Below the pieces are notes generated by a model. The model ran no database searches. It was not told the origin of the DNA and saw only the letters and a program-made list of their open reading frames with translations. Both the position numbers and the translations under genes were made by a program. From the NCBI GenBank assembly GCA_031290625.1, contig JAITND010000043.1, forward strand, positions 1 through 32,614: DNA of 32,614 nt, given 5' to 3'. Origin of the DNA: Endomicrobium sp. GTDB lineage: Bacteria > Elusimicrobiota > Endomicrobiia > Endomicrobiales > Endomicrobiaceae. Positions 5,669-32,614 of the stretch are shown here, in pieces (within the stretch, counting starts at the first letter, position 1; each line of letters starts with the position of its first letter).

Positions 5669-6565
5669 ATGCCGATGCCAATAAGGAGATATTCGTAAAA
5701 GAAATGCGGGAGCTTTTTCAGTCTGACGAAGTTTATATTGCGGACGGTTCCCAAGAAGAAGCTGAAAGATTGACGGAAATTGCTCAAAAATCTGAAGTTG
5801 ACGGAAGAGTTGTCTTAGAAAAATTAAACGGACAAGAGTATCCAAATTCTTACTATCACCGCTCAAACCCTAACGATGCTGCCCGTACGGAACGCTTAAC
5901 CTTTGTTTGCGCTCCGACAAAAGACCAAGCTGGACCTAATAATAATTGGTTGGACACTAAAGAAGCTAAAGAAAAGATGACTGATCTTTTTAAAGACGCA
6001 ATGAAGGGAAGAACAATGTACGTTATTCCATTTGTCATGGGTCCGCCGAAATCAAAATACGCTAAAAACTGCGTTTAAATAACCGATTCTGCATATGCGG
6101 CTTTGAGCAGGCAAACCGGCTGCCCGCCCAAATTCAAGGTTTAGCGTTTCAATTTACAACTGTCCTACACTTTCGCCCGAGTACGACAATCCTAAAGGCG
6201 CGTCTATTTCCGGAATAATTTTTGGCGGACGCAGAAAAAGTACAATTCCGTTGGTATATGAAGCAAAAGATTGGAAGAGAGGAGTATTTACTGCGTCAAT
6301 AATAGGTTCTGAAACTACCGCCGCCGCAAGCGGTCAAGTGGGAACTGTAAGAAGAGATCCTATGGCTATGCTTCCTTTTTGCGGATACAATATGGGCGAT
6401 TATTTTCAACATTGGTTAAATATCGGCAAGAGAGCTAAAAAGCTTCCTAAAATATTTATGGTTAACTGGTTTAGAAAAGACGACGATGGTAAGTTTATGT
6501 GGCCATGTTTTAGAGAAAATTCCAGAGTTATAAAATGGATGATAGACAGACATGTTTTGGGATAG
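5669..6565 (+). pseudogene. pckG: Phosphoenolpyruvate carboxykinase (GTP), decayed
   Basis: The GTP-dependent enzyme interconverts oxaloacetate and PEP. A good start with AAGGAG remains at 5669 but runs into a stop at once. From 5701 one frame encodes the N-terminal part (YIADGSQEEAERL, SYYHRSNPNDAARTE, GPNNNW, KGRTMYVIPFVMGPP). About 6079-6110 still reads ITDSAYAAL. Then about 230 residues are missing, and from about 6220 another frame resumes with [41 protein letters not shown] and [12 protein letters not shown], stopping before the C-terminal domain. The full protein is about 600 residues; the P-loop/kinase-loop region and C-terminus are lost. It cannot be active, so this PEP-oxaloacetate route is lost unless another copy exists. 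Confidence 0.9.
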
Positions 6566-21088: not shown

Positions 21089-21768
21089 TTAAGTTTTTAA
21101 CCAAGGATTCTGTAATCCGTGAAAATCATTTGGCAATTGGTTATTTAATATTATACTAAAATCTATAAACAGAGCGTTTTGTTGGCTTGCTTTTGATAAA
21201 GATTGTGCTTTATAATCTGACGGTTTTATAGATGTATTTATTATTGGAGGAGGGGGAGGAACCACTATAATGTTTTTATTGTCTCTTAATATTTTTGCTC
21301 TCTTAACAACGGAAACAAAATCACTATCACCTGACAACAAAAAACATTTATCATATTTATCAAGTATAGCATCTTCTATTAAGCGAATAGCATTCACATC
21401 AGATTCTTTTTCTTCGTGTCTTTGCAAACAACCAGTTGGAGTTAACAAACATTTAGTGCATTTTTCTCTATTAGTGCATTTTGTTATAGATTTATGTTTG
21501 AAGTTGCCTAACACTGTTTCTATATTTAGAAATTGCATGGCAGAGATAAATGTTTGATGCCTTTTGACAGGTTCAGTTCCTCTGAAAAGAGCTAAAGCTG
21601 AAAAATATACTATATTAGCATTTGTTTTATCATCATCATCTTTCAAAAAAGATTCTATTAAACTTCTGTAGGTTAACCATTTCACCGGTTTATGAATTTT
21701 TTTTGATAGTTATCTAATTTATGGTAATAGTTAAATCCGTCTACTAAAGCTAATATTCTGTTTTTCAT
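21089..21768 (-). pseudogene. NYN/LabA-type ribonuclease domain protein (copy 1), frameshifted at an A8 tract
   Basis: From ATG 21768 (GAGGAAC upstream) the minus strand reads MKNRILALVDGFNYYHKLDN, with VDGFN the first metal-binding Asp of a NYN (PIN-like) nuclease. At a run of eight A (plus-strand T 21697-21704) the frame breaks; one extra A would restore it to KPVKWLTYRSL and the rest. The continuing frame has NANIVYFSALALF, RHQTFISAMQFLN, a Cys cluster (CTNREKCTKC), KESDVNAIRLIEDA (second Asp) and CFLLSGDSDFVSVVKRA (third Asp), then a Pro run and a C-terminal LPN. The domain is otherwise whole, so slippage at the A8 tract could still yield protein. Probable role: RNA cleavage; target unknown. 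Confidence 0.75.
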
Positions 21769-25858: not shown

Positions 25859-25862
25859 AGAT

Positions 25863-25936
25863 CGGGGCGTGGCGCAGTTGGCTAGCGCACTCCCTTGGGG
25901 TGGGAGAGGTCGCTGGTTCAAGTCCAGTCGCCCCGA
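25863..25936 (+). tRNA. tRNA-Pro (anticodon GGG), element integration site
   Basis: The acceptor CGGGGCG pairs perfectly with CGCCCCG, with discriminator A. The anticodon arm CTCCC/GGGAG encloses TTGGGGT, giving anticodon GGG. The T arm reads CGCTGGTTCAAGTCCAG. CCA is not encoded. Its last ten bases, GTCGCCCCGA, are repeated at 30889-30898, so an element integrated here and restored the 3' end. Confidence 0.96.
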
Positions 25937-25943
25937 TTTCACG

Positions 25944-25982
25944 AAGGCTTGGAAAAAATCCTTATTTTTCAAGCCTTTTTTA
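25944..25982 (+). terminator. Rho-independent terminator after tRNA-Pro
   Basis: AAGGCTT (25944-25950) plus GAAAAA pairs with TTTTTC plus AAGCCTT (25965-25977), with one bulged G, and a T-run follows. It lies inside the element's left end, so the element brought its own terminator for the tRNA. Confidence 0.75.
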
Positions 25983-26051
25983 TTTGTAGACGACTGATAG
26001 ATAATTCATGATATATTCAAAATAATTGAAAATAACTCAAAATAACATTAC

Positions 26052-26069
26052 AAGACTAAAATAAGACTA
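26052..26069 (+). repeat. 18-bp repeat, left copy (candidate integrase arm site)
   Basis: AAGACTAAAATAAGACTA, itself containing AAGACTA twice, overlaps the stop of the restored integrase frame. The identical copy is at 30851-30868, in the same orientation. Confidence 0.7.
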
Positions 26070-26752
26070 ATTTCTGAGGGTTAATAAATCTACGGAATCC
26101 TTTAAGTGTTCTTTTGATAAGCGAGCGTATATCATTGTGGTTTTTACATCAGAATGCTCCAATAATGGCTTACGGTGTAAAGATTAATGCCGCCTATCAC
26201 AAGCCAGCTGGCAAACGTATGCCTGAGCGTATGAAATGAAGCATCTTTAATATTCGCTTTTTTGAAAATTTGTTTGATTGATGTCTGTAATGCAGACATA
26301 GACATATCGTCATTTTTATCTTTAAATAAATAATCGCGACCTTTTTTATTTTCAGGAATGTTTTTAATAAGATACTCTTTTAATTCTTTATTGAGTGGAA
26401 TTGTGCGGAATTCATAGTTTTTTGGAGTAAATCCGTGTTTTGGGTTTACAGATATGGTGTCTTTGCTAAAATCAATATCTTGAACTTGCAAATTAAACAC
26501 TTCGGACAACCTAAAACCTGTATACAACGAAATCATAATCATTGTTCTTAGTGAGCCTGAGGAAGCTTTTATAAGGTTTTGAGCTTCTTCTTTAGACAAA
26601 AAGCGGGGTTGCTTTAGCGGGATTTTTAGAGGTTTAATAGGTTTTGCTGGGTTTTCTGCTATATATACTTCCACTCTGCAGCTTTTGTAAATAAGGCTTT
26701 TATTGTGTCTAATTCTCTGTTTACACTTAATGGGGAGAGTGCGAAATGGCGA
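26067..26752 (-). pseudogene. Tyrosine recombinase/integrase, frameshifted and 5'-truncated
   Basis: The catalytic domain is clear: FLSKEEAQNLIKASSGSLRT, SLYTGFRLSEVFNLQVQDID with the first Arg, and FHTLRHTFASWLVIGG with HxxR. The last part is in another frame: after YTVS the true continuation is LLEHSDVKTTMIYARLSKEH, with the second His and the catalytic Tyr, ending at 26067. A further shift near 26665 separates the core-binding part, which reads LSVNRELDTIKALFTKAAEW in another frame. The first 60-100 residues are missing. So at least two frameshifts and a 5' loss inactivate the integrase that presumably used the tRNA-Pro site. Confidence 0.88.
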
Positions 26753-26961
26753 TACACGGGCTGCCTGATGGGGGTAGTATAACTGTTTACGAGCAAGCTG
26801 GAGATTCTTCTTGGACAGTCGCAACTACGGATGGGATAACGCTGTTTGTCATTATGTCCAAAGGGGAACTGAAACGCAAGTTAAGGGTTGTAAACGAAAG
26901 AATTAAGTTGATTTATAGCGGCGATACGATACCTGAAGGATTAGAGGCTAGATTACATTAA
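26746..26961 (+). CDS. Small element-borne protein, unknown
   Basis: A 71-residue open frame (MAIHGLPDGGSITVYEQAGD, then ELKRKLRVVNERIKLIYSGD and a C-terminal EGLEARLH) with GGGGAGAG upstream of ATG 26746. It overlaps the decayed 5' end of the integrase on the other strand. It resembles the small proteins found between tail and lysis genes of phages only in context; no motif is recognised. It may be a truncated fragment. Confidence 0.45.
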   Translation: MAIHGLPDGGSITVYEQAGDSSWTVATTDGITLFVIMSKGELKRKLRVVNERIKLIYSGDTIPEGLEARLH

Positions 26962-26991
26962 AACATTAGTTATTGAAAGAGGATAACAGTT

Positions 26992-27258
26992 ATGGGCGGA
27001 CTAGAGATAAGAGGGATTGAGGCAGATAGCGACGGGCATATTATGACAGATAAAGAAGCTCTAATGCAAAAGAAAATAAGAGAGAAATATTCATTAATTG
27101 ATGAAAGAAGGATAATCAGAAGTAAGGAGAGAGATAAAAAAGCGTTTAAGGAATATGACGATTATGCGGAGAAATGCATAAAGGAAGTAAACGACATGAT
27201 TTTTGAAAGGAGCAACCCCGGCAGATTTGAGTGGATAAAACATAAAGTTTGGGGATAA
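26992..27258 (+). CDS. Small charged helical protein, unknown, element-borne
   Basis: An 88-residue open frame with GAAAGAGG about nine bases before ATG 26992. It is highly charged and mostly helical (KEALMQKKIREKYSLIDERR, RDKKAFKEYDDYAEKCIKEV), with Trp in the C-terminal EWIKHKVWG. No family is recognised. It is intact and follows the previous small gene in the same direction, suggesting a small phage-type operon running up to about 27810. Confidence 0.5.
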   Translation: MGGLEIRGIEADSDGHIMTDKEALMQKKIREKYSLIDERRIIRSKERDKKAFKEYDDYAEKCIKEVNDMIFERSNPGRFEWIKHKVWG

Positions 27259-27270
27259 AAAAGGACAGCT

Positions 27271-27606
27271 ATGAACGTATCATTTGAGTTGGGGATAGGG
27301 ATTTTAATCAACTTGATAACGTTGGGGGGGGGGGGACCCTGATAAGATTATAAAGCAGGGGCTTATAGCGGCAGATTTTGTAAAGAACAAGTTAAAAGAC
27401 AAAGAACACGTATATTTGGAATTTGACAAAAGGAAAAACGCGACCAATACAACAGGCTGCTTGCTTATATTTATGAAGAAGACAAGGAAGAGTTAGAATA
27501 CATGATTAATTGGTTATTGTTAAAAGAAGGCTATGCGACAGTATTGACGTATTATCCTAATGTTAAATACAAAAACATATTCCAAAAAGCGCAGGAAAGA
27601 GGCTAA
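27271..27606 (+). pseudogene. Staphylococcal-nuclease-like fragment behind a 12-G tract
   Basis: ATG 27271 (AAAGGACAG upstream) starts a short hydrophobic peptide, MNVSFELGIGILINLITL, that enters 12 consecutive G (27324-27335) and stops at 27340. Removing one G joins it to DPDKIIKQGLIAADFVKNKL and VYLEFDKRK; a second shift in an A-run near 27440 leads to RDQYNRLLAYIYEEDKEE, then LLKEGYATVLTYYPN and NIFQKAQERG, ending at 27606. R-D-x-Y-x-R-L-L-A-Y plus L..EGYA and F..AQ is the C-terminal half of the SNase fold. The N-terminal half with DGDT is missing, so an active nuclease is unlikely. Confidence 0.6.
27324..27335 (+). repeat. Homopolymer of 12 G
   Basis: Twelve consecutive G inside an open frame of a low-GC genome, the longest G run seen in the window. 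Runs of this kind change length by slippage and are used for phase variation in other bacteria. Confidence 0.9.
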
Positions 27607-27645
27607 GAAAAATAAAACAGGCTTTTGGGCTGACAACGAGCTTTA

Positions 27646-27810
27646 ATGATAAATAAATTAAAGACAGCTTTAATTATAATTGCAATAGTTTTTATTGTCA
27701 GCTTGCTTTGGCAGAACAAGACAAAGCAGGATAGGCTTGAGAAGTTAATGTTTGAAAAAGGCGTTATGGCTGACAACATAAAAAGTCAGGCAGTGATTAT
27801 ACAGAGATAA
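27646..27810 (+). CDS. Small single-span membrane protein, element-borne
   Basis: A 54-residue protein with one membrane helix (ALIIIAIVFIVSLLW, about residues 8-22) and a basic, helical cytoplasmic or periplasmic tail (NKTKQDRLEKLMFEKGVMAD). There is only a weak ribosome-binding site before ATG 27646. Topology and position among small phage-like genes would fit a spanin or holin accessory protein, but no motif confirms it. The frame is intact. Confidence 0.45.
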   Translation: MINKLKTALIIIAIVFIVSLLWQNKTKQDRLEKLMFEKGVMADNIKSQAVIIQR

Positions 27811-27833
27811 GATTGTTTACAAGGAGAAGAAAA

Positions 27834-28264
27834 ATGGAAATAACGCTGGAAATAATAAAGGAAATATACGAAAGCAAGGAACTGGCGGGAGCAGTGAAAG
27901 CGATAGAAGTTGTGTTAAAACCAGCGTTAGATACTTGCCGCCCGAAGGGAAAGCGGAAATATCTGTTGATTTAGAAGGCAATACGAATTTGAAGATAAAG
28001 AGTTTTAGTCCTGCAGTAAACGGTATCTGTTCGCTTAATAGGTTGAAGGTTGGTATTAGTTCAAGATTTGCATATTGGGGAAGATATGGACTGGGAGTTG
28101 GTATTAATCTTTGCTGTAGTTGTAATAACAACAATTATAATACTGTCAAACCGTTTCTTTCGGTAGACCGCAGAATTTCAGATTTTGTCCCGTTTATGAG
28201 AAATACGACTGTAGGAATTGTTTACGATGGGGATTTCGTGATTGAATTATCTGTCTTTTTTTGA
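27834..28264 (+). pseudogene. Element-borne protein with beta-rich C-terminus, frameshifted
   Basis: ATG 27834 has a good AAGGAG and reads MEITLEIIKEIYESKELAGA then VKAIEVVLKPALDT. After one missing base near 27935 the next frame continues PPEGKAEISVDLEGNTNLKI, FSPAVNGICSLNRLKVGISS and VKPFLSVDRRISDFVPFMRN to a stop at 28262. The later part has alternating hydrophobic strands ending in Phe, like a small beta-barrel. In a third frame ATG 28087 encodes a short hydrophobic peptide (MDWELVLIFAVVVITTIIIL), perhaps a nested small membrane gene or chance. No family is recognised. Confidence 0.45.
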
Positions 28265-28265
28265 A

Positions 28266-28953
28266 TCAAAGAGTTCTTCCTGTATCGGTTGTGTCGGTCG
28301 CTTTATCAAACATATAGTTTTCATATTGCCAGCTTTTTGGCATTTTAAGTGTTCCGCACGGATTTGGTAAAAGTGAACTTAATAAAGTCTTTGACTTCAT
28401 TTTGTATCTTTTATGAGCATTGTTGATTAAGTCAATTGCAGGGTTATTGATAGGAGGTAAAACCGATATTATTTTTTCAGGGAAATTTCCTTTTATTGCT
28501 TTAATTGGCGGTATTAAATCGCTGTCCGCTGAAACTATTATTGCTTCGTCAAATGTATTCTTTGAGGCATTTTCAAATAAATGTATAGCTAAATTTACAT
28601 CTGTAAGTTTTTCTTCATGTGCAGTAAATTTTTTTGAACATAATGGGCAAAATTTTGTTTTTGATTTAAATTGTCCGTATATTATTTCAATATTAGTTCT
28701 GCATTGAAACAAAAGAGCTTTTATGTAAACTGTCTGTCTTTCGCGGGATTCTGGTTTCCATGAGAGTGCTGTAAAATATTTTATCCCTACAAGTTTCTCA
28801 AAAGAGGTATCTATTACAGCGGTTGCACATTGCAAGCAGGTCAAGCCATTTGCAATCATTGAAGCTAGGGTTTGCTTTAGTGCTTCTTTTTATTGAATGG
28901 TACAAATTGTATCCATCAATAAAGAACATTTTGCGATTTTTCGGTCGGCACAT
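28266..28953 (-). pseudogene. NYN/LabA-type ribonuclease domain protein (copy 2), frameshifted
   Basis: From ATG 28953 (GAGGGGG upstream) the minus strand reads CRPKNRKMFFIDGYNLYHSI, where IDGYN carries the first Asp of the NYN fold, and then KWLDLLAMC, running out of frame by 28800. The next frame gives KLVGIKYFTALSWK, RQTVYIKALLFQ, a Cys2 pair (FCPLCSKKF), EEKLTDVNLAIHLFENA and EAIIVSADSDLIPPIKAIKG, then LLSSLLPNPCGTL. All three acidic motifs are present but split by one frameshift near 28810-28840. The layout matches copy 1 at 21089. The family is thought to cleave RNA; the target is unknown. Confidence 0.75.
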
Positions 28954-29068
28954 ATACCCCCTCAACAAAAATCCCCAAGCCACTTTCGCAACTCGGGGGA
29001 ACAGCTAAAGCTATAAACAATAGCTGTGATGATGATAACATGATAATTGTTTTTATTGATTTTGTCAA
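28954..29068 (-). promoter_or_regulatory. Promoter and two-hairpin leader of NYN copy 2
   Basis: On the minus strand TTGACA (plus 29063-29068), 17 nt, TATCAT (29040-29045) form a near-consensus promoter. The leader folds ACAGCTA/TAGCTGT (about 29000-29027), then a CCCC/GGGG stem with GAAA at its tip, followed by ATTTTTG as in an intrinsic terminator, then GAGGGGG and ATG 28953. The layout parallels the leader of copy 1. Confidence 0.65.
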
Positions 29069-29091
29069 ATTTTAATTAATTTAGGAGAATT

Positions 29092-29485
29092 ATGAAACAA
29101 GACTTAGAATTATTATTAAAGAGAACTGCATTTAAAGCAGATTATACGATAGGCAATTGGGATATATTGGCTATGACGAACACAATAATACAGTAGAGAA
29201 TGTCCATTTTCTTTGCAATACGTTAGGACTTAGTAAAGACGAAACGATTGCTAATGGGAAGTACAAAGTGATAATTAACCTTAGTTATAAGTTCAATAGA
29301 GAATTACCGTTATTGCTAGACGTAAGCTATATGTACACAGAGGCAACTGCCCAAAGGGCACGCAAGAGGGTATTCTTGTTGGATTAAACGACAAAGCGGG
29401 CTGGGTTAGCAATTCCAGCCAATATGAGCAAAGGATTGTAGATTTGATTAAACAATATAGGGAATGTCGGGTGACGGTTGCATAG
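29092..29485 (+). pseudogene. DUF5675-like phage protein, frameshifted
   Basis: ATG 29092 (TTAGGAG upstream) starts KQDLELLLKRTAFKADYTIG, then the frame shifts near 29155 to GYIGYDEHNNTVENVHFLCN, with IANGKYKVIINLSYKF and RELPLLLDV. It shifts again near 29330 to HRGNCPKGTQEGILVGLNDK, then SNSSQYEQRIVDLIKQY, ending at 29483. The R..F...YTIG...., GxYxVxxxxSxxFxRxLPxLLDV, H.GN...T.GCILVG order is that of DUF5675, a phage-associated family of unknown activity. At least two frameshifts inactivate it. Confidence 0.65.
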
Positions 29486-29635
29486 CATATCTGATAAAAA
29501 AAGATAAATACGTAAAATTTCGCAAAAAGTTCATATTACAATACAATTTATTGATTTCCTAAATCTTAAAATGCTAAAAGCTAAATCAAATGGAAGTTTT
29601 TAACTTCTGTAATTTAATTAAAGGAGCAAAGATTT
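29486..29635. other. Short spacer without an assignable gene
   Basis: About 150 AT-rich bases between the DUF5675 relic and the small secreted gene. Only the ribosome-binding site AAAGGAGC of the next gene, at about 29620-29628, is recognisable. Confidence 0.5.
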
Positions 29636-29858
29636 ATGAACAAATGTTTTATGTTGTACTTTTGGAATTAGCAACGCTTATGCGGATTGGTGGGGTAGAA
29701 CTTGGAAAAACATAAAGAGAGAAATAACTAATGCCGTCCAACCTGTTGAAAAACTTATTAACAGGAATCAAAAAGAGATTTTGACGGTGCTAGGATTGAT
29801 AAAAACAGGACAAGACATAAAGGATTTGAAAGATTTAAAGGATTCGTTGACCAAATAA
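29636..29858 (+). pseudogene. Small secreted protein, frameshifted in the signal peptide
   Basis: ATG 29636 (AAAGGAGC upstream) reads MNKCFMLYFWN and stops. In the neighbouring frame the signal-peptide end TFGISNAYA is followed by DWWGRTWKNIKREITNAVQP, VEKLINRNQKEILTVLGLIK and a Lys/Asp-rich end, stopping at 29856. AYA-D is a good signal-peptidase site, so the ancestral product was a secreted helical protein of about 70 residues. A one-base loss near 29650 breaks it. The family is not recognised. Confidence 0.5.
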
Positions 29859-30004
29859 AGACAAAGAAAATTAAATATAGAGTGACGCATGAAAAATAAT
29901 GCAGATTATGTATAGCTTTCTATAAAGAACGGTGGCAATACAAGAAGTGATGAGAAAAAGAAAATAGAACGTCCTGAGAAAGAAATATTATAGGGGGTGG
30001 TGTA

Positions 30005-30680
30005 ATGAAAATATTTATTAAGATGTTTTTATCTACAGTATTGTTTATATTAGCTTTTACAACAAATATATTTGCTCTAGGTGACATATCTTTGGGTTCA
30101 AGGGTGTTTCCGTTGCGCATAAATGGTGTAGACAACATGCTTGTCAATGATGTCAAAGATACTGACGGAGACAGGAACTTGGTAATGGGTGCAATAGGTG
30201 CAGAGTATTTTCACGATGTTAAAGGTGGATTTAAAATAGGAGTGGGATTAGAAGATGCTAACACCGGTAGAATGAACTTAAGAATCGGCTAGAAATAAAG
30301 ACAAATCCCAACGATGTTGATGGAAACTACGAAGTGTCATTAAAATCCGTTATGTTAGGCGGAAGTTACAATGAAAGTATAGGTGATAAAATTGATGTAA
30401 ATAGTAAATTATTTTTTGGTTCTGGTCGGGCTAATTTTAAATCAGAATTCTCTTTAAAAGAAAATAAAGAAATAGTCGATTCAAAGAAAATCAATGAAAA
30501 CGCCGATTGTTTTATAGCGGAGTTGTCAGTAGGAGTACGATATTTCTTTACAAAGACAAAGAAATTTGGAGTAGGAGTTGATTTAGGATATAGATACATA
30601 CCGAAAGTAGTACTGTCAAAAACATAGAATTAAATTCTTCAGGAATAATATCCACATTAGGTTTAATCTACAAAATATAA
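30005..30680 (+). pseudogene. Outer-membrane beta-barrel protein, frameshifted twice
   Basis: ATG 30005 (AGGGGGTGG upstream) begins a signal peptide (MKIFIKMFLSTVLFILAFTT, cleavage near IFA-LG) followed by GDISLGSRVFPLRI and MGAIGAEYFHDVKGGFKIGV. The frame stops at 30290; the next gives SLKSVMLGGSYNES, SKLFFGSGRANFKSE, AELSVGVRYFFTKTKKFGVG and VDLGYRYIPK to 30625. A third ends SSGIISTLGLIYKI at 30678, a typical last strand. Alternating hydrophobic strands fit an 8-stranded barrel of about 220 residues. Two frameshifts make it a pseudogene. For an integrated element the cargo is unusual. Confidence 0.65.
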
Positions 30681-30735
30681 AAGAAGAAGAGATTAAAAAT
30701 GAAATACTATCAATATAACTATTGTCGGAGATAAA

Positions 30736-30810
30736 ATGTTCGTTAAAATGTTAACAGGAAAATATGTTGTGAGATACTACAAGGGATTGAAAAATTATTA
30801 CAAAGTTTAG
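30736..30810 (+). CDS. Possible 24-residue peptide near the right end of the element
   Basis: ATG 30736 has CGGAG upstream and encodes FVKMLTGKYVVRYYKGLKNY followed by YKV and a stop. It is basic and aromatic-rich. It may be a small element gene or the stub of a larger one; nothing else in 30681-30850 looks coding. Confidence 0.25.
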   Translation: MFVKMLTGKYVVRYYKGLKNYYKV

Positions 30811-30850
30811 TATAATAATAGATATAGAATGTATTGGATTTTGGAGTTGT

Positions 30851-30868
30851 AAGACTAAAATAAGACTA
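30851..30868 (+). repeat. 18-bp repeat, right copy (candidate integrase arm site)
   Basis: AAGACTAAAATAAGACTA, identical to 26052-26069 and in the same orientation, 20 bases before the right core repeat at 30889-30898. Confidence 0.7.
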
Positions 30869-30888
30869 TTTGAGGAGAGAAAAATACT

Positions 30889-30898
30889 GTCGCCCCGA
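30889..30898 (+). repeat. Right attachment core of the tRNA-Pro element
   Basis: GTCGCCCCGA repeats the last ten bases of tRNA-Pro (25927-25936). In this AT-rich region a GC-rich 10-mer matching a tRNA end, next to the paired 18-bp repeat, is strong evidence for attR. Confidence 0.78.
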
Positions 30899-31072: not shown

Positions 31073-31135
31073 AGCGATGACGGAGCGATTAAAAATTATG
31101 ACTTGGTAGAGATAATTTTTCTCGGCATCGTCGCT
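31073..31135. other. Imperfect stem-loop before the radical SAM gene
   Basis: AGCGA (31073-31077) and TCGCT (31131-31135) flank a perfect inner stem AAAAATTAT (31091-31099)/ATAATTTTT (31112-31120) with GAG and CTC beside it. It could be a structured leader, or a degraded palindromic repeat like the one before der. A 10-codon frame (MTERLKIMTW) starts inside it at 31083 or so; it has an AGAGG upstream but nothing else to support it. Confidence 0.35.
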
Positions 31136-31147
31136 TCTTGATCCCAT

Positions 31148-31163
31148 AAAGTCCAATATGTTA
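31148..31163. repeat. Inverted copy of the 16-bp repeat at 21894-21909
   Basis: AAAGTCCAATATGTTA is the exact reverse complement of 21894-21909. It sits right at the 5' boundary of the radical SAM coding sequence, where the start codon is missing. Confidence 0.5.
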
Positions 31164-32503
31164 GGAACCCTTATAATTTTATTGTTAACTTAGATGTAAA
31201 TAATTTATTACTTTATAATAGTAGAAATAATAATTTTATAAAACTAGAGAAAAATGTTTATTTTGATTATGTAATAAAAATTAATAAGGATAATATAAAT
31301 TTAAAAAAAGATAATAATTTTAAAAAGCTCTATGAGTTAGGTTTTTTTGTAAATTATAACCGAGATGAAAGAAATGAAATAATCATTAATTTTGAAAAAA
31401 ATAAATATTGCTTTGATAGCTTAAATTTAACAGTAGCAATTACGAATGAGTGCAATTTGAGTTGTATTTTTTGTTATGTGAATAAAGAAAAGATACATAA
31501 ATTATCATTGAGAACTTATAAAAACATTCTTAATTTTATAAAACAATACTATGAGGATTATAAAATTAAGAATTTATTTATAACATGGTCTGGTGGAGAG
31601 CCATTAATTGATTTTAATAAAATAATAAAGTTATCAGAAGAAGTTATTGGTTTTTGCCATAAAAATAATATTAAATTTGAGGCAAATATTATAACCAATG
31701 CCGTTTTGTTAAATAAGGAAGTTATAAAAAGTTTACAAAAGATAAGTGTTAGTAACATACAAATTTCTATAGAACCAACAGAAGTTTTGGATTCAATAAA
31801 TAGACCTATTAAAAATACAAATAAATCAAATTTTAATAATACTTATGAAAATATAAAAGACGTAGTCGGATTAATACCAATCGTTTTAAGAATTGCATTA
31901 TCAAAGAAAAATTTTACCAAAATTGTTAGTTTCGTTGAAAAACTAAAAAGCGATAACTTATTTTTCAATAAAGTAAATTTCGCTTTAGGTCCCTTGCATA
32001 TTCCTTACTTAAACTCAAATTTAGATTACAGTATTTTAAATGATGTTTTTGATTCTAGCGAATATGCTAAGGCATATTTTGATATTTATGAGGAGTTACT
32101 TAAAAAAAATATTATATATCTTACTCCTTATCCATCATTAGATAATGAATGCGGAGCTTATAAAAATAATGTATTCACTATAGATTCAAAGGGATATATT
32201 TTTAAGTGTTTTGAAAATGTATTTGATAAGTCGGAATCTATAGGAAATATCAAAAATAAAAAAATAAAATTAACTTACAAGCACACAAATTGGATAAAAA
32301 AAGATTTTGATTTTGAAAAACTAGAATGTTACCATTGCAAATTACTGCCTATATGCAAGGGTGGATGTAATATGGTAAGGAGATTTAAAAAAGAAACCAA
32401 TATAGGAAATTTTTTAGAATTAGGTTGTAATGAGTGGAAATATGAATATGAAAGAGGACTAAAACTATATTATCAAAGTCTTAAAGCAAATGAAAAAAAT
32501 TAA
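31163..32503 (+). CDS. Radical SAM/SPASM peptide-maturase-like protein, start codon unclear
   Basis: The coding frame runs from about RNPYNFIVNLDVNNLLLYNS (31163) to 32503, about 446 residues. Residues before the core resemble the N-terminal recognition-type region of RiPP maturases. The radical SAM motif is TNECNLSCIFCY (CxxxCxxC), followed by FITWSGGEPLIDF (GGEP). The C-terminal SPASM region supplies Cys ligands: NECGAYKNNVFTIDSKGYIFKCFEN in outline, and CYHCKLLPICKGGCNMVRR. These enzymes use SAM to cross-link or oxidise a precursor peptide. No ATG/GTG/TTG lies in frame upstream after the stop at 31139; ATG 31158 is out of frame. Base composition is far more AT-rich than the core genes, suggesting transfer. 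A likely ABC exporter gene overlaps its end. Confidence 0.85.
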   Translation, partial: RNPYNFIVNLDVNNLLLYNSRNNNFIKLEKNVYFDYVIKINKDNINLKKDNNFKKLYELGFFVNYNRDERNEIIINFEKNKYCFDSLNLTVAITNECNLSCIFCYVNKEKIHKLSLRTYKNILNFIKQYYEDYKIKNLFITWSGGEPLIDFNKIIKLSEEVIGFCHKNNIKFEANIITNAVLLNKEVIKSLQKISVSNIQISIEPTEVLDSINRPIKNTNKSNFNNTYENIKDVVGLIPIVLRIALSKKNFTKIVSFVEKLKSDNLFFNKVNFALGPLHIPYLNSNLDYSILNDVFDSSEYAKAYFDIYEELLKKNIIYLTPYPSLDNECGAYKNNVFTIDSKGYIFKCFENVFDKSESIGNIKNKKIKLTYKHTNWIKKDFDFEKLECYHCKLLPICKGGCNMVRRFKKETNIGNFLELGCNEWKYEYERGLKLYYQSLKANEKN

Positions 32504-32614
32504 TATTGTATTTAGTCTTTTTAGAAATTATAAAACAGAAGTTTCCCAGTATTTATGTATTGATTTTTTTTTAAAGTTCATCAATATAGTCACTGCTTTT
32601 TTTCTGATGATTTT
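32490..32614 (+). CDS. Start of a membrane protein, possibly an ABC exporter (cut by window end)
   Basis: ATG 32490 overlaps the end of the radical SAM gene by 14 bases and stays open to the window end: MKKINIVFSLFRNYKTEVSQ, then YLCIDFFLKFINIVTAFFLM. A short basic start followed by a long hydrophobic helix fits the first membrane segment of an ABC exporter or of another membrane partner. Only about 41 residues are seen, so the ABC call rests on this N-terminus and on the company of a SPASM maturase. The overlap implies coupled translation. Confidence 0.45.
   Translation, partial: MKKINIVFSLFRNYKTEVSQYLCIDFFLKFINIVTAFFLMI

Follow-up and report, generated by a model that had tools for sequence, protein, structure and literature searches.

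What does a radical SAM/SPASM gene at the very edge of a contig do in a bacterium with a small genome, and is the locus still able to do it? The stretch considered here (the window) is the whole of contig C6, 32614 bp long and ending at position 32614, from an Endomicrobium genome of 1.18 Mb (89% complete). Its relatives, named Endomicrobium or Ca. Endomicrobiellum in sequence collections, are symbionts of termite-gut flagellates, in agreement with the reduced, symbiont-like genome that a first-pass annotation had read from the DNA; the nearest locus (L042; 96.8% identity over 3.8 kb) is from Ca. Endomicrobiellum porotermitis. In the literature that we searched, no radical SAM peptide system is described for Endomicrobium, and the words radical, RiPP and bacteriocin are missing from the main text of PMC11257099, which treats the evolution of these symbionts. 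From what follows, it is likely that the window carries a copy of a RiPP cluster, truncated at the 5' end and probably inactivated not long ago; among the genomes searched, the cluster is confined to the genus Endomicrobium.

The radical SAM/SPASM reading frame

The gene itself, already recognized in the first-pass annotation, is real. Its CxxxCxxC and GGEP motifs (Table 1) are confirmed, and with the former and a score of 54.5 bits in the genome search (Pfam PF04055; cut-off 29.5) the protein belongs to the radical SAM superfamily. The Cys-rich end has the full seven-cysteine pattern of the SPASM subfamily and exceeds the cut-off of NCBIfam TIGR04085 (48.1 bits; cut-off 27), the Pfam SPASM model remaining below its own (15.5 bits; cut-off 21.5). 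The N-terminal extension, once put at 125 residues, is shorter: 96 residues precede CxxxCxxC when counted from 31163, or 103 from the upstream stop codon.

Table 1. Features at and near the maturase locus (positions in the window)
Feature	Position	Strand	Basis or remark
tRNA-Pro(ggg) beside the cluster, probable attachment site	25862-25937	+	
Integrated element between tRNA-Pro and maturase relic, ~5 kb	25938-30898		absent from the same place in L042
Tyrosine (phage) integrase of the element	26144-26824	-	PF00589, 93 bits
Deletion/rearrangement junction in place of precursor gene and maturase start	31130-31176	+	shared with L042 (7942-7988)
Radical SAM/SPASM peptide-maturase frame, 5'-truncated	31142-32503	+	446 aa from 31163; stop codon 32501-32503
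RRE-like N-terminal domain (YNFIVNLDVNNLLLYNSRNNNF...ELGFFVNYNRDE), first residues missing	31163-31438	+	profile homology
CxxxCxxC radical SAM cluster motif (CNLSCIFC)	31451-31474	+	motif reading
GGEP SAM-binding motif	31592-31603	+	motif reading
QISIEPTEVLDSINRPI segment, where QxT(I/L)DG..xH...R is usual	31760-31810	+	conserved in the genus
SPASM domain, seven cysteines	32150-32428	+	CX13GX4C 32150-32209; CX2CX5CX3CX19C 32327-32428
ABC exporter start, about 41 codons, cut by contig end	32490-32614	+	ATG 32490; 14-base overlap with the maturase stop

What might such an enzyme modify? In NCBIfam, the highest scores belong to models of RiPP maturases, with alignments spanning the full length, namely TIGR04463 (184.5 bits; cut-off 525) and Clo7bot/CtpM (TIGR04334; 177.5 bits; cut-off 600), followed, again over the whole length, by FlmE/OhkG (162 bits) and CefB (156 bits); the PapB ranthipeptide maturase model (NF047865) aligned through the core and SPASM regions (105.4 bits; cut-off 340), the SCIFF maturase model TIGR03974 gave 55 bits (cut-off 425), and no RiPP-maturase model in NCBIfam reached its cut-off. 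Alternatively, the enzyme might mature a cofactor or a protein, as do anaerobic sulfatase maturases, MoaA, PqqE and the heme d1 enzymes, its place next to a transporter being a coincidence. It shares the radical SAM/SPASM fold with these, and structures of anaerobic sulfatase maturases can be aligned to the family profile (E 6.6e-23). Against this, the sulfatase maturase model, at 64.5 bits (cut-off 349), is not the best match, MoaA scored 41.5 bits (cut-off 284), other cofactor radical SAM models were likewise far under their cut-offs, and the relatives have a conserved precursor gene before the radical SAM gene and an exporter gene after it. Because that precursor adjoins the enzyme gene, we consider a cofactor or protein maturase of this kind highly improbable.

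The first-pass annotation had also remarked that the segment usually reading QxxLDGP..HD..R is replaced. This is so throughout the genus: where other family members have QxT(I/L)DG...H...R, Endomicrobium has QISIEPTE(I/V)LDS...RPIKNTN, with small variations, and the segment is kept in every genus member covering that region. Since a genus-specific segment takes the place of the usual motif, the substrate side may differ, as had been suggested. Phylogenetic analysis groups the Endomicrobium proteins into a single long-branched clade with full support.

The N-terminal domain, which is also present in longer radical SAM proteins of Elusimicrobiota, is RRE-like as judged by homology. A profile built from the Elusimicrobiota proteins is collinear with PDB 8VPO (residues 9 to 455, E 1.1e-17) and finds its best solved relative in CteB, the SCIFF maturase (PDB 5WGG, E 1.4e-31), both of which belong to the set of structures against which RRE models were validated (PMC12710340). 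The N-terminal profile on its own gave E 0.085 against 8VPO, Pfam detected no RRE in this domain, and an AlphaFold model of the enzyme based on seven related sequences (pLDDT 48) was too poor for its N-terminal fold to be read.

The complete cluster in relatives and its likely product

The first-pass annotation expected the precursor beyond the right end of the window, but relatives carry it on the other side, upstream of the maturase gene. The order precursor, radical SAM gene, ABC exporter gene, gene for a 122-residue membrane protein is found in L037, L039 and L113 (the last from a near-complete genome, G069), with no unrelated metabolic gene within the operon; in L036 (G025) an intact precursor gene is followed by a radical SAM gene open for 402 codons up to the contig end, and in L115 (G110) by the start of one, again up to the contig end. 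The overlapping membrane-protein start noted in the window is that of the exporter, its first 41 residues being about 70-80% identical to the ABC exporters of relatives. Among the remaining contigs of the same genome the exporter is absent, the only ABC proteins there being unrelated ones (23-32% identity).

Six relatives have a precursor gene upstream of the radical SAM gene. The peptides (up to 71 residues) share a leader, (M)EIL.V.K.D.E, and an invariant core, C[AS]CAGYEGxCxxLV, followed by divergent tails, usually Pro-rich (from VPPPRPF to PERPKPKPNPPPRPKPNPPPMPMPPPYHPPPFGPPFG, 21-57% Pro). Three precursors are intact with an ATG start (G025, G110 and G009), that of G019 has a GTG start as read from the DNA, and those of G069 and G114 have, respectively, an amber codon and a frameshift in the leader. 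Of the 42 genus genomes, 6 contain the core pattern, and a search of other relatives and of viral contigs gave no match to it; phage and plasmid relatives reached at most about 32% identity. Thus, a conserved short peptide with leader and core adjoins the maturase gene in six relatives and is missing from the window, so that the earlier proposal of a RiPP modification and export cluster is supported for the Endomicrobium family, the window copy having neither enzyme start nor precursor.

Strong stem-loops lie between precursor and radical SAM genes in L036 (7916-7976), L039 (7910-7979) and L113 (9380-9470, minus strand), with z of -5.8 to -6.5; those of L037 (7880-7976) and L114 are weaker (z -2.2). 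Their sequences are unrelated among loci and show no clear T run. Preservation of position while sequence changes suggests a working RNA element, which may set the ratio of precursor to enzyme or protect the precursor message.

How does this arrangement compare with known systems? A close parallel is the Clo7bot/CtpM cluster on a Paraclostridium bifermentans plasmid (NZ_CP094934), in which genes for Cys-rich peptides are followed by those for CtpM, a peptidase, an ABC transporter and a DUF4097 protein: as in Endomicrobium, one or more short Cys-containing peptides precede a SPASM maturase with an N-terminal domain, an exporter and a small extracytoplasmic beta protein. The enzymes align over their whole length, yet at about 25% identity, and Clo7bot has several peptides with many cysteines, no Pro tail and an additional Peptidase_MA gene, whereas Endomicrobium has a single precursor with three core cysteines and a Pro-rich tail. 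The best NCBIfam model, TIGR04463/CefB, is matched along its whole length, N-terminal domain included, but the example CefB cluster (L129) encodes a long CefA precursor with a cysteine at every fifth position and other modifying enzymes; CteB combines an RRE with SPASM, an architecture that the Endomicrobium enzyme probably shares, but there is no SCIFF peptide in Endomicrobium. The Endomicrobium family adds a further form to the known radical SAM/SPASM peptide clusters.

Gene order, the conservation of the precursor, the motifs, the exporter, the losses in the window and the decay in relatives are all visible at the level of sequence, and they allow a pathway to be proposed for intact clusters. 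The RRE-like domain at the N-terminus of the maturase would bind the leader, and a SAM-derived radical would remove a hydrogen from an acceptor residue in the core, which the auxiliary clusters may help to bond to a cysteine sulfur. PapB joins Cys to Asp or Glu in CX3D/E units, with Glu linked through its gamma carbon (PMC9413430), and its substrate PapA has six such units; by sequence likeness to these, the most likely site for a thioether is the Cys-X3-Glu unit CAGYE. This CX3E unit is the one element of the ranthipeptide trait (a Cys thioether to a non-alpha carbon) that can be read from the core. The modified peptide would then leave through the ABC exporter. Only the membrane and ATPase domains of this exceeded the Pfam cut-off, and no peptidase domain was found, so leader removal would need another protease. 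The 122-residue single-pass membrane protein encoded beside the exporter may have an accessory or immunity role. An AlphaFold model gives it a single transmembrane helix and a beta domain (pLDDT 78); Foldseek found no fold match for this model (best E 0.33), Pfam yielded nothing useful for it or for the precursors, and no homologue turned up among known immunity proteins and toxins. It occupies the position of the DUF4097-type protein of the Clo7bot cluster, and in view of the Foldseek result a DUF4097-like role is only an analogy, by position alone.

Loss of the 5' end in the window

In the window, no in-frame ATG, GTG or TTG lies ahead of CxxxCxxC, the earliest being a TTG (31457) inside the motif. 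Relatives have their ATG some five residues before the point from which the 446 residues of Table 1 are counted (L036, 7977). Homology to the relatives starts only at about 31172, within the codons of YNFIVNL, and the DNA to the left is unrelated to the cluster. The identical junction is present in L042, which comes from a different assembly, so misassembly is improbable. The start of homology and the shared junction together imply that the 5' end and the precursor gene were deleted. With precursor and enzyme start codon gone, this copy has most likely become a pseudogene only recently.

Might the shortened enzyme nevertheless be made, from a non-standard start such as the ATT at 31181 behind AGGA (31163-31166), and modify a precursor encoded elsewhere in the genome? 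The frame does continue for 446 codons without stop or frameshift, the share of nonsynonymous changes on the window branch is low (15 synonymous, 14 nonsynonymous), and the sister locus L042 decayed further after sharing the junction, which the window copy did not. On the other hand, the enzyme has lost a standard start codon and the first residues of its N-terminal domain, and the DNA patterns used found no match to the precursor core in the same genome, which, the assembly being just 89% complete, is not proof of absence. Moreover, about 3.1% overall divergence from L042 corresponds to about 20 neutral substitutions, and the frame would have stayed free of stops by chance in ~23% of cases (indels uncounted), so its openness is no evidence of function. 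We therefore think it improbable that the truncated enzyme is still at work, and retain the view of a copy that died recently. Until then the gene was a selected one, as the branch changes and a dN/dS of 0.20 between window and G025 indicate: it has been under purifying selection through most of its history.

Between the tRNA-Pro gene and the maturase relic lies the integrated element of Table 1, whose last 17 bp partly repeat the 3' end of the tRNA (30882-30898; 82% identity). The element includes an NYN-domain gene (28266-28859) that looks frameshifted, and a second NYN-domain gene lies at 21089-21685. Elsewhere in the window, the N- and C-terminal domain pieces of PEP carboxykinase are in separate frames (5704-6078 and 6251-6565, plus strand), and the gene is apparently broken.

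Distribution, decay and role in the genus

Traces of the radical SAM gene, from several searches combined, were found in at least 14 of the 42 genus genomes, including that of the window. Among relatives in which most of the gene could be assessed, or in which it was plainly in fragments, it is unbroken in G025 alone. The exporter gene is intact in G009, G016, G018, G020, G033 and G069, and the gene for the 122-residue protein in these and G022. A broken radical SAM gene accompanies an intact exporter gene in five genomes (G009, G016, G020, G033 and G069), and the converse was never seen; with p = 0.06 in a paired sign test on these five, this is a trend, short of significance. The longer survival of the exporter and the 122-residue protein hints at self-protection kept after loss of the peptide, the 122-residue protein perhaps conferring immunity. 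The window copy is of value mainly as a snapshot of the death of a cluster, most clusters of its relatives being in decay as well.

In G069 (L113), the precursor leader (at about 9613, minus strand) and the radical SAM gene (at about 9212, minus strand) each have exactly one disabling TAG, the exporter gene and the small membrane-protein gene (120 residues in this genome) are intact, and adjacent genes terminate in TAG, TAA or TGA. Fragments of the radical SAM C-terminus are present in L074 (4672-4770), L078 (5002-5076) and L084 (4621-4695), from two genomes, directly upstream of genes that open with a CATACA-type tandem repeat; at 25-33 codons they were rejected as extra copies.

As to origin, the first-pass annotation had taken the very AT-rich composition as a sign of acquisition from another lineage. 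The composition is as described (22% GC in the radical SAM frame against about 36% across the window), and it recurs in relatives, in which the enzyme and exporter genes have 21-24% GC and the precursors 43-50%, flanking genes in L037 having 34%. The cluster occupies at least six chromosomal places. Low GC and scattered locations fit gene transfer, as would the lack of any close homologue in our searches outside the genus, but no donor was found. In L037 (7599-11307) and L040 (1-2241) the cluster adjoins priA in opposite relative orientation, which points to a local inversion.

What might the peptide be for? If bacteria inside protist cells do produce a modified peptide, competition or signalling within one cell could be put to the test. 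The precursor is unusual in its design, joining a fixed head to a Pro-rich tail that varies. It is tempting to see here a new RiPP family of protist endosymbionts, in which a radical-modified CxCAGYEGxC head and a fast-changing Pro-rich tail serve conflict between symbionts in termite flagellates, maturase and precursor being lost first and the exporter and a 122-residue immunity protein kept; taken as a whole, we put this forward tentatively, as a rather unlikely sum of parts. The product may instead be a secreted factor directed at the host flagellate, or a metal-binding peptide, with no part in competition and with the 122-residue protein as an export accessory. The CxC and three cysteines of the core could bind metal, the Pro-rich tail differs among species, and the 122-residue protein gave no fold match, nor was there a homologue among known immunity proteins and toxins; but the exporter and this protein outlive the maturase in several genomes, and self-protection fits that (non-significant) trend better than does a host-directed signal. 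We regard such a function as a possibility of some standing, if short of probable. Intact precursor genes suited to a heterologous test are available in G025, G110 and G009.

Finally, we draw attention to a different cluster with a radical SAM gene and a Pro-rich peptide in two relatives (L043, 1068-3762, minus strand; L072, 5995-8827, plus strand), with a trace in L080. Its precursor has a conserved leader, MAK.KKEKV.FF, and cores beginning CAYTLADDNPWKDRRPPNPPPTQPKPQ... and CGCGMRGDDRPWRDPP..., and it also encodes a 91-residue RRE-like protein, a 329-residue radical SAM protein that matches SPASM only weakly, and an ABC exporter.
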